The notes under the pieces are model-generated. The model did no database searches and was not told the DNA's origin. It saw only the letters and a list, made by a program, of their open reading frames with translations. Shown here piece after piece: positions 15,647 to 18,033 of a stretch of 64,000 bases of DNA (its first letter is position 1; each line of letters starts with the position of its first letter). Made by a program: the position numbers and the translations under genes. The stretch spans positions 434,001-498,000 of the forward strand of contig NZ_JAMFMA010000001.1 of the NCBI RefSeq assembly GCF_023502425.1, in the 5' to 3' direction. The DNA comes from Flagellimonas spongiicola. GTDB lineage: Bacteria; Bacteroidota; Bacteroidia; Flavobacteriales; Flavobacteriaceae.

Positions 15647-15937
15647 ATGGGCGAGCTTGTTGAAATTGTTGATTCTTTGGAAAACAAGGTGAGCAAATTG
15701 TTGCACAAAATGGAATTGTTGCACAAAGCTAATACCAAGTTGAAAGAAGAATTGGAATTTGCAAAAGAGGAAAACAAGGTTCAACTAAGCACCATAAATG
15801 AATGGGAGGAGAAATATAACTCCCTAAAAATGGCAAATACAATGCTGGGTAGTAACACTAATAAAACAGAAGCCAAGCTCAAAATAAACACATTGATCCG
15901 TGAATTGGATGTTTGTATCGCCAAACTAGCGGATTAA
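15647..15937 (+). CDS. Small coiled-coil protein upstream of ZapA (ZapB-like candidate)
   Basis: 96 aa from the ATG at 15647; a TTG two codons earlier is also open, but the ATG is preferred. The whole protein is heptad-rich (VDSLENKVSKLLHKM, then repeated Lys/Glu helix), ending with INTLIRELDVCIAKL. It is 14 bases upstream of zapA with its own good promoter. Relatives in Flavobacteriaceae are often named phenylalanyl-tRNA synthetase by error; no synthetase domain is present. By gene pairing and coiled-coil form, a role in Z-ring organisation together with ZapA is an inference. Confidence 0.75.
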   Translation: MGELVEIVDSLENKVSKLLHKMELLHKANTKLKEELEFAKEENKVQLSTINEWEEKYNSLKMANTMLGSNTNKTEAKLKINTLIRELDVCIAKLAD

Positions 15938-15951
15938 GATGCATAGAATAT

Positions 15952-16245
15952 ATGGAGGAGAAGCTCAAAATAAAGCTTTCCATTGCAGATAGGGTATATC
16001 CTTTGACCATAGACCCCAAACAAGAAGAGGGGTTACGTAAAGCGGCCAAAAACATAGAAAATTTGGCTAAGAAGTTTGAGCAAAACTATGCAGTGCGTGA
16101 CAAGCAAGATGTTCTTGCAATGTGTGCCTTACAGTTTGCCTCCAAGATTGAGCAAGGTGGAATAGATAGTTCGGAAAACACCAAAGCGGCATATGAACGC
16201 TTAAAAGCTTTGGACGATTTGGTACATTCCAAACTTGGAGAATAA
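15952..16245 (+). CDS. zapA: Cell division protein ZapA
   Basis: 97 aa from the ATG at 15952; the open frame extends 13 codons upstream, but those residues do not match the family and overlap the preceding gene. The N-terminal beta part LKIKLSIADRVYPLTI and a C-terminal helix are typical of ZapA, which binds and bundles FtsZ at mid-cell. Position just after a coiled-coil gene and just before the 6S RNA candidate mirrors the zapA-ssrS linkage known in Gammaproteobacteria. Confidence 0.88.
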   Translation: MEEKLKIKLSIADRVYPLTIDPKQEEGLRKAAKNIENLAKKFEQNYAVRDKQDVLAMCALQFASKIEQGGIDSSENTKAAYERLKALDDLVHSKLGE

Positions 16246-16272
16246 GTTCTTTTAAATAAAATATTTGTTACT

Positions 16273-16442
16273 GCCCACATTGGTAATTATTTTTTGACAA
16301 ACTCAACACTATTATATTTGAAAAGGGTGAGTTTAGGTTGTAAAAGCAGGCCCTACCTGTATAGGGATCCTTGATCAACTTGTTAGCCCTAAACCTGTAA
16401 TTTGGAGTTTGTACAAAACTTCGGCTAATGTGGGCTTTTTTT
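16273..16442 (+). ncRNA. ssrS: 6S RNA candidate (6S-Flavo type)
   Basis: The 216-base gap between zapA and rny holds three nested long-range stems. The outer stem pairs 16273-16281 with 16427-16435 (9 perfect pairs, extendable to 12 with G-U). The middle stem pairs 16297-16304 with 16405-16412 (8 perfect). The inner stem pairs 16331-16337 with 16388-16394 (7 perfect). A U-run follows at 16436-16442. A rod with a large internal loop and about 170 bases in length is the hallmark of 6S RNA, which binds the housekeeping RNA polymerase. Location after zapA agrees. The exact 5' end is not visible. A structured leader of rny is the alternative. Confidence 0.75.
16293..16320 (+). promoter_or_regulatory. 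Promoter-like element inside the 6S RNA candidate
   Basis: TTTG at 16293-16296 and TATATTTG at 16313-16320 match the -33 and -7 consensus with 16 bases between them. The -7 box falls in the 5' side of the internal loop between the middle and inner stems of the 6S candidate. It may be a real promoter giving a shorter RNA or rny transcript, or it may be the promoter mimic that the RNA offers to polymerase. Confidence 0.5.
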
Positions 16443-16461: not shown

Positions 16462-18033
16462 ATGGATAGCACTATATTATTGGTTGTGGCGGGGGTAGTA
16501 GGATTGATCATTGGATTCGCAATTGCCAAAATGATGGAGAAAGGAAAAGCCGCTAAGACCATTTCTGGAGCAAAGAAGGAGGCTTCCGATATTGTCAAAG
16601 AAGCAAAAAAAGAAGGTGAAAACATAAAAAAGGATAAAATCTTCCAGGCCAAGGAAAAATTTCTGGAACTAAAGGCCGAACATGAAAAGGTCATCATAAA
16701 TAAGGATAAGAAAATTGCCGAAGCTGAAAAACGAACCCGAGATAAGGAATCACAAATCAGCAATGAACTTACCAAAAACAAAAAACTAAACGATAAACTT
16801 GAAACTAGAATCAAGGAAGTTTCCTATAAAAGTGAGATTCTAGAAAAGAAGCAATCGGAGGTAGAAAAACTTCATAAAAGTCAGGTTCAGCAGCTGGAAG
16901 TAATTTCTGGACTATCCGCTGAAGATGCGAAAAGTCAACTGTTGGAGTCGTTGAAAGAGACAGCCAAGACGGATGCAATGGCTTATCTTCAGAGTACCCT
17001 TGAGGAAGCGAAGCTTACTGCCCAGCAAGAAGCACGAAAAATAGTCATCAATACCATTCAACGCATTGGTACGGAAGAAGCAGTTGAAAACTGTGTTTCC
17101 GTTTTCAATTTGGAATCTGATGATGTTAAAGGACGAATCATTGGTAGGGAAGGACGTAATATCCGTGCCATAGAAGCAGCTACTGGTGTCGAGATTATTG
17201 TAGATGATACGCCAGAAGCCATTATCCTTTCTTGTTTTGATTCCGTGCGTAGGGAAGTAGCACGATTGTCGTTACATCGCTTGGTAACGGACGGAAGAAT
17301 CCATCCTGCACGTATTGAGGAAATCGTTAAAAAGACGGAAAAACAAATCAACGAGGAAATTGCGGAAATCGGTAAACGTACGGTCATTGATTTGGGGATT
17401 CATGGTTTACACCCAGAGTTGATAAAGGCAGTAGGTAGAATGAAATACCGTTCCTCATATGGCCAGAACTTGTTACAACACTCAAGAGAGGTTGCAAAAC
17501 TTTGTGGGGTAATGGCTGCAGAATTGGGACTAAACCCAAAAATTGCCAAAAGAGCAGGTTTATTGCATGACATAGGCAAGGTGCCAAATACCGAGGTTGA
17601 GGTTGAAACCCCACACGCGATTCTTGGTATGCAATGGGCCCAAAAGTATGGCGAAAAGAAAGAGGTGTGCAATGCCATTGGTGCCCACCATGATGAAATA
17701 GAAATGACCACCTTGATTTCTCCAATTGTACAGGTTTGTGATGCTATTAGTGGTGCGCGACCTGGGGCAAGAAGACAAGTATTGGATTCCTACATCCAAC
17801 GTTTGAAAGATTTGGAGGATATTGCGTTTGGTTTCAATGGCGTTCAAAAGGCGTATGCCATTCAAGCAGGAAGAGAGCTTCGGGTAATTGTTGAGAGCGA
17901 AAAAGTAAGCGATGACAAAGCCGCGGAGTTATCTTTTGAGATTTCCCAAAAGATTCAAACAGATATGACCTATCCGGGTCAGGTAAAAGTTACGGTAATT
18001 CGGGAAACGCGTTCAGTTAATGTGGCCAAGTAA
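16462..18033 (+). CDS. rny: Ribonuclease Y
   Basis: 523 aa membrane-anchored endoribonuclease that starts decay of many mRNAs. An N-terminal transmembrane helix (about 5-23), a long charged coiled coil (about 30-190), a KH RNA-binding domain (about 210-275, [15 protein letters not shown]) and an HD domain with HDIGK near 369-373 and AHHDE near 408-412 are all present in the usual order and length. The 6S RNA candidate occupies the upstream gap. Confidence 0.96.

Follow-up and report, generated by a model that had tools for sequence, protein, structure and literature searches.

A 6S RNA gene between zapA and rny in Flagellimonas spongiicola and the putative boxA leader that precedes 6S RNA in many Bacteroidia

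Judged from its sequence, the zapA-rny gap in a 64,000-nucleotide stretch of the Flagellimonas spongiicola genome, which we call the window, contains a true 6S RNA gene of the established flavobacterial type. The RNA family itself is already known, is ordinary and needs annotation only. The part that seems worth following is the conserved boxA-like leader in front of it: with a probability that we put at about 0.8, the 6S gene, which stands in the order zapB-zapA-6S-rny, carries a putative boxA leader and would at least partly be made as a longer, Nus-loaded precursor. The features of the locus are collected in Table 1.

Table 1. Features of the zapB-zapA-6S-rny locus, with positions counted from the first nucleotide of the window
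Feature	Position	Strand	Evidence and remarks
zapB-like gene, small coiled-coil protein	15647..15937	+	Open reading frame; Pfam ZapB, E 3.3e-4, 21.5 bits, under the cut-off of 31.5
zapA	15952..16245	+	Pfam PF05164, 64.1 bits (cut-off 23.8); stop codon TAA at 16243-16245
Putative boxA-like element GTTCTTTTAAATA	16246..16258	+	Abuts the zapA stop codon; one mismatch to the gammaproteobacterial consensus GYTCTTTAANA
6S RNA gene (ssrS, 6S-Flavo)	16273..16442	+	Fold z -4.77; 162.7 bits with model R1, which was built from 50 sequences including this one; covariation; mature ends inferred from closing stem and U-run
Closing helix H1	16273..16284 with 16424..16435	+	12 pairs, two of them G-U; 11 with a compensatory change in relatives; outside the Rfam match
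Helix H2, below the central bubble	16297..16304 with 16405..16412	+	8 pairs, 96.0% of cells paired
Rfam RF01685 (6S-Flavo) match	16301..16410	+	100.8 bits, gathering score 85
Central bubble, 5' side	16305..16323	+	Unpaired in the consensus
Upper arm with helices H3-H6	16324..16390	+	Conserved inner pairings
H3	16324-16328/16386-16390	+	Conserved inner helix
H4	16335-16339/16377-16381	+	Conserved inner helix
H5	16344-16346/16370-16372	+	Conserved inner helix
H6	16351-16354/16363-16366	+	Conserved inner helix
Central bubble, 3' side	16391..16404	+	Unpaired in the consensus
U-run	16436..16442	+	T in 137-146 of 146 copies at 16436-16441 and in 91 of 146 at 16442
rny (RNase Y)	16462..18033	+	Pfam RNase_Y_N, KH_1 and HD; PF12072, 121.5 bits

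A 6S RNA candidate had been proposed here from the letters alone, with a search by the Rfam 6S-Flavo covariance model as the suggested check. That search gave a match over the gathering score (100.8 versus 85 bits), which together with the covariation and the fold z-score described below supports the original prediction. RF01685 is the sole Rfam match at gathering score within the 64-kb window; the general 6S model, RF00013, reaches 27.9 bits at the locus, under its cut-off of 46.4. Among 149 sampled genomes of the window's family, RF01685 scored above its cut-off in 135, and one match per genome was found in 146 of the 149 and in all 125 good genomes (completeness of 90% or more, contamination of 5% or less); a scan of 14 named control genomes, Bacteroides ihuae among them, gave no RF01685 match. 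The window's RNA shares sequence, inner structure and taxon with the 6S-Flavo RNA described by Weinberg et al. 2010 (PMC2864571). The RF01685 model covers 108 positions with pairs in the upper arm only, to which H1 and H2 (20 pairs), both covarying, are added here. The Bacteroides 6S, known as Bacteroidales-1 RNA (RF01693), has the same overall shape, and a homology bridge to it is provided by our model R2, which matches the Rfam-defined Bacteroidales 6S loci L174 (E 2.6e-11) and L175 (E 7.5e-10). In related organisms, 6S RNA was detected in the transcriptome of F. psychrophilum (PMC9723704), and a 6S RNA with evidence of pRNAs has been reported for Bacteroides thetaiotaomicron (PMC7366714).

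The RNA is modeled as a hairpin of about 170 nt, the 6S shape of closing stem, central bubble and upper arm. Its minimum free energy over 16273-16442 is -55.3 kcal/mol, compared with -36.6 +/- 3.9 for 200 dinucleotide shuffles, none of which did as well (z = -4.77), a fold well beyond what chance would give. The structure alignment comprised 50 of the 146 family copies sharing less than 80% identity; RNAalifold returned a consensus of 38 pairs, and dropping one stray pair left 37 pairs in six helices. Across these 50 relatives, 96.7% of the cells hold standard pairs and compensatory changes are seen at 31 of the 37 pairs; covariation scores 0.493, versus 0.234 in shuffles and at most 0.118 with the partners slid. 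The structure came from the same 50 sequences, which favours it over its slid counterparts, and each measure still exceeds all 500 shuffles. On 36 named Bacteroidia loci, aligned to the model and hence leaning towards it, the score is 0.661.

Three perfect stems had been predicted. The outer one, of nine Watson-Crick pairs (16273-16281 with 16427-16435), is present and extends to 12; the middle one, of eight perfect pairs (16297-16304 with 16405-16412), is present as well, and 97.5% and 96.0% of their cells, respectively, are paired in the 50 relatives. For the inner stem, a perfect seven-pair match exists at 16331-16337/16388-16394, presumably the one intended, but it had to be rejected as a conserved pairing, with 57.9% of cells paired versus 58.1% in shuffles over the same 50 relatives. 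The expected covariation in relatives was thus found for the outer and middle stems but not for the perfect inner stem. The U-run predicted at the end of the candidate is there (16436-16442), and H1 and the U-run form a long-range, intrinsic-terminator-like 3' end. Given that this end lies just before rny, one could suppose that a different structured RNA, or a terminator or attenuator of rny, merely resembles 6S. We find this scarcely credible, since the curated 6S-Flavo model scores above its cut-off, the covariation spans the full length, the RNA is homologous to the experimentally detected Bacteroides 6S, and 29 of 59 copies found elsewhere in the class lie away from both zapA and rny.

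6S RNA mimics an open promoter, binds the sigma-A RNA polymerase and is released once a short pRNA has been copied from the bubble. By homology, the 6S of the window should bind sigma-A RNA polymerase and template a pRNA. As in E. coli 6S, to which we draw the analogy, the pRNA is likely to be copied from the 5' side of the bubble (16305-16323), whose AAC at 16305-16307 is identical in 146 of 146 family copies.

The neighbourhood of the gene is strongly conserved. In the family, zapA lies upstream on the same strand in 145 of 146 loci, the exception (L057) being cut by a contig end, rny lies downstream of 6S in 141, and 138 have all three neighbours, ZapB, ZapA and Rny; in f2, a second family of the same taxonomic order, six of six matches show zapA-6S-rny. 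The RNase Y of the window is 95% identical to its best named match. A neighbour-blind, genome-wide search with R2 found 6S in 61 of 149 class genomes. Of the 59 class copies outside the window's family, a count that excludes four R2 matches from that family, 28 have zapA on one side and rny on the other, 2 follow zapA without rny, and 29 adjoin neither within the stretch examined. Among named loci, taken as the best 80 retrieved by RNase Y and nearly all with Bacteroidota titles, 43 had a 6S match at E <0.001, with zapA adjacent in 42 of these 43 (in L277 it does not adjoin 6S). R2 was built from zapA-rny loci and the 80 named loci were picked by rny, so that the 59 class copies give the fairer count of linkage. 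Ten named zapA-rny loci in which 6S was not evident gave no 6S match with Rfam; R2 matched weakly in four of these 10 (L279, L280, L286 and L297). Two of the named loci, L300 (titled Williamsia sp.) and L319 (Alphaproteobacteria bacterium), have an rny 58-59% identical to that of the window, which fits Bacteroidota, and look like mislabelled metagenome bins.

Farther away, RF00013 was over its cut-off in none of 296 phylum genomes, and a scan of 296 phylum genomes with RF01693 matched only 5. In four deep families of the same phylum, perhaps Chlorobi-like, although this is a guess, sub-threshold RF00013 matches (the deep set, 30 of 42 such matches) stand before rny in 30 of 30 cases and directly after a Pfam ZapA in 30 of 30. 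These 6S-like RNAs between zapA and rny (L209-L238), below the RF00013 cut-off, could extend the family.

The linkage downstream of zapA that had been likened to that of gammaproteobacterial ssrS is real. In E. coli K-12, ssrS (RF00013) directly follows zapA across a gap of 41 nt and has the same hairpin-with-bubble plan; its downstream gene is fau, as opposed to rny in the window. The order ZapB, ZapA, 6S has been described in beta- and gammaproteobacteria (PMC7641849), and an alphaproteobacterial small RNA paper has, in its available text, no bearing on the zapA-6S link (PMC2245857). The simplest history would be that zapB, zapA, 6S and rny formed one unit in the ancestor of the phylum and that 6S has moved away several times, Bacteroides being one case. 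That 6S follows zapA in Bacteroidota as well as in Proteobacteria raises the question of whether the neighbourhood is older than either phylum.

Upstream of 6S, a GTTCTTTAAAATA-like element is prominent in the 146 family regions. In the 110 nt before 6S, the pattern GTTC[ACT]T[TA], which was widened after inspection of the data, is present at 133 of 146 family loci, 39 of 59 class loci, 32 of 43 named loci and 3 of 30 deep loci, with a chance expectation, derived from the same loci, of 0.034 per region searched. It is also present in 41 of 50 diverse family representatives; the four groups were drawn separately, may share species and are not to be summed. The exact GTTCTTT lies within 140 nt upstream in 114 of 146, 36 of 59, 22 of 43 and 3 of 30, respectively. 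The untuned gammaproteobacterial boxA consensus GYTCTTTAANA is found exactly in 54 of 146 family, 3 of 59 class, 7 of 43 named and 0 of 30 deep loci, and with at most one mismatch in 113, 18, 20 and 1. Shuffles, which for the boxA and promoter-box counts keep base composition only, gave 0.0-0.05 exact occurrences and 0.15-2.1 with at most one mismatch (0.0 and 2.1 in the family). The opposite strand gave no exact occurrence in any group and, at one mismatch, 16 in the family, 2 in the class, 2 among the named and 0 among the deep loci. A longer pattern based on the element has one perfect site in the window's genome, before 6S; two other sites with three mismatches do not exceed the control.

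The element was found in none of the six f2 genomes with zapA-6S-rny, and the Chryseobacterium-type 6S copies are without a boxA-like element. At the Chryseobacterium-type loci L241-L244, L246, L247 and L269, a T-rich stretch (AGATTTTT...), which is not boxA, lies between zapA and 6S. Closer to the RNA, the TTACT at 16268-16272, just 5' of 6S, is conserved in the family almost like the RNA itself (TACTGCC is exact in 127 of 146), and perhaps marks where the 5' end is processed or where transcription starts.

The element tends to sit at the zapA stop codon. Counting elements from -25 to +60 of that codon (120 of 145 family and 25 of 30 class loci), its start falls 0-3 nt past the stop in the family and 1-8 nt in the class, and its distance to 6S is 24-26 nt and 43-74 nt, respectively (interquartile ranges). 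When the search is unlimited, the stop-to-element medians are 2 nt (family) and 3 nt (class), with extremes of -127 to 24 and -8 to 180. The anchoring at the stop rests on medians and quartiles, because in this unlimited search the distance to the stop (standard deviation 14.7 in the family, 34.3 in the class) varies at least as much as the distance to 6S (12.4 and 24.5). The element accompanies 186 of 247 zapA stops, a pooled number that may count shared species twice, versus 13 of 673 other stops.

Its usual place at the zapA stop codon would also suit a reading in which 6S has no special leader and the conserved bases belong to the zapA message as its 3' end, serving its stability or termination context and unrelated to 6S. 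Among named zapA-rny loci, 28 of the 43 with 6S have the element after the zapA stop, versus 1 of the 29 lacking a 6S match (Fisher 6.5e-8, kinship ignored). That the element belongs to zapA and not to 6S failed on these 29 loci, and the zapA-message explanation is disfavoured for this reason; against it stand, too, the 11 of 29 class 6S copies away from zapA that carry the element, and its presence at only 13 of 673 other stop codons. We regard it as very improbable. Ten of these 11 unlinked copies have the exact GTTCTTT; the remaining one, L379 (GTTCCTT), is doubtful. Promoter-like boxes upstream of boxA occur in 8 of the 11, versus 3.2 expected, a mild enrichment.

A second way to account for the element without Nus factors is to take 6S as real and the element as a DNA promoter motif, either a -33 or an alternative-sigma element, with the start close to the 5' end of 6S. 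The near-constant element-6S distance in the family (24-26 nt interquartile) and the conservation of the adjoining TTACT speak for this. In the class, however, the element lies anywhere from 11 to 104 nt from 6S but 1-8 nt (interquartile) past the zapA stop, and a -33 element 25 nt upstream would place the start within the closing stem, where covariation begins at the first pair. Moreover, none of the 30 zapA-linked class copies has an exact TAnnTTTG, the housekeeping box of the phylum (PMC9723704; PMC7366714), in the 40 nt before 6S, and the sequence of the element resembles published boxA. We therefore consider a promoter motif unlikely, if clearly less so than the zapA-message explanation, and retain the putative boxA leader as the preferred reading.

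The same TAnnTTTG box divides the class copies. It lies, in exact form, within 30 nt of the 6S start in none of the 39 boxA copies versus 11 of the 20 others (59 class copies; Fisher 6e-7, kinship ignored); counted by family, boxA is present in 19 of 28, the sigma-A box in 5 and the two together in 1 (p = 0.026). With a 40-nt limit the box appears in 12 unlinked class copies instead of 11, the additional one (L381) also being without boxA. The Bacteroidales copies L174 and L175, which are beside neither zapA nor rny, lack boxA; in both an exact TAnnTTTG ends 15 nt before the RNA. Two genomes of the class hold two 6S matches each: in G477, one (of L333 and L381) adjoins zapA and has boxA, unlike the other, and in G504 both (L376 and L383) have an abutting sigma-A box. 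As a candidate for the conserved upstream sequence in the family, a sigma-A promoter was rejected: within 45 nt, TAnnTTTG is exact in 2 of 146 loci versus 3.6 in shuffles, and within one mismatch in 24 of 146 versus 59. In the window and in L020, AATATTTG and AACATTTG, respectively, lie just 5' of 6S, one mismatch from the sigma-A box, and a weak proximal promoter at AATATTTG is possible in the window's genome.

The rRNA operons of the clade offer a comparison. GTTC[ACT]TT was present in the rRNA leader or spacer of 7 of 10 genomes, counting one 16S locus for each of the 10 of 12 genomes with a match (19 16S loci scanned overall). In family rRNA the element usually reads GTTCATT with (G/A)ACATATTG or a close variant after it; one family genome has an additional GTTCTTTACAG farther upstream of rRNA, the rRNA element of a class relative reads GTTCTTTGACATATTGG, and Chryseobacterium-type rrn carries GATCATTGACAT. 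Position 5 is thus mostly A in the family rRNA element versus T in the 6S element, and this mismatch is a real weakness of the boxA reading. A 16S search of the window's own assembly (99.98% complete) gave no match, so the comparison lacks the rrn boxA of this genome; the rRNA operons were probably left out of the assembly, collapsed or masked there. In the predicted fold of the precursor, the window's boxA lies partly within a local AU-rich hairpin, which is ill-suited to a free RNA-binding site, though the hairpin should be weak.

Our working model extends the boxA reading to many Bacteroidia, for which we think it reasonably probable that a Nus-modified polymerase makes 6S: the putative boxA at the zapA stop would load NusB-S10, protect the precursor and help ends 150 nt apart to pair into the terminator stem. 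6S would be made at least partly as a longer precursor, by transcription that comes from upstream and passes zapA. Ribosomes would leave at the zapA stop codon, and boxA in the nascent RNA would bind NusB-S10; the Nus complex might then keep Rho off the untranslated stretch, or retain the 5' region nearby until the 3' strand of H1 emerges. H1 and the U-run would terminate the transcript, and the 5' end of the precursor would be trimmed near the conserved ACT/GCC (ACU/GCC in RNA). Copies with their own sigma-A promoter abutting the RNA would dispense with boxA, and the mature RNA would act like 6S elsewhere.

BoxA is known from rRNA operons, suhB and CRISPR arrays (PMC5725501, PMC7862264, PMC12691694). 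The survey that gives GYTCTTTAANA as the gammaproteobacterial consensus left non-coding RNAs aside, by its own account (PMC5725501), and the boxA of the Legionella Lens CRISPR array reads GTTCTTTAAAA (PMC7862264). The 6S element is like these in sequence, and the rRNA and CRISPR boxA also precede an untranslated RNA; it differs in that the untranslated RNA is 6S and the site is the stop codon of the preceding gene. In E. coli, the 320 nt upstream of ssrS contain no boxA match with at most two mismatches. We found no description of boxA combined with 6S RNA in the open-access papers searched; the one paper that contains both terms is unrelated (PMC2694808).

If the model is true, boxA would govern 6S as it does rRNA and CRISPR RNA, making three classes of untranslated RNA, and the supply of 6S would be tied to the machinery of ribosomal RNA synthesis. 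The boxA leader would link the Nus antitermination system to a regulator that sequesters RNA polymerase, and would provide a testable route for how Bacteroidota make 6S.
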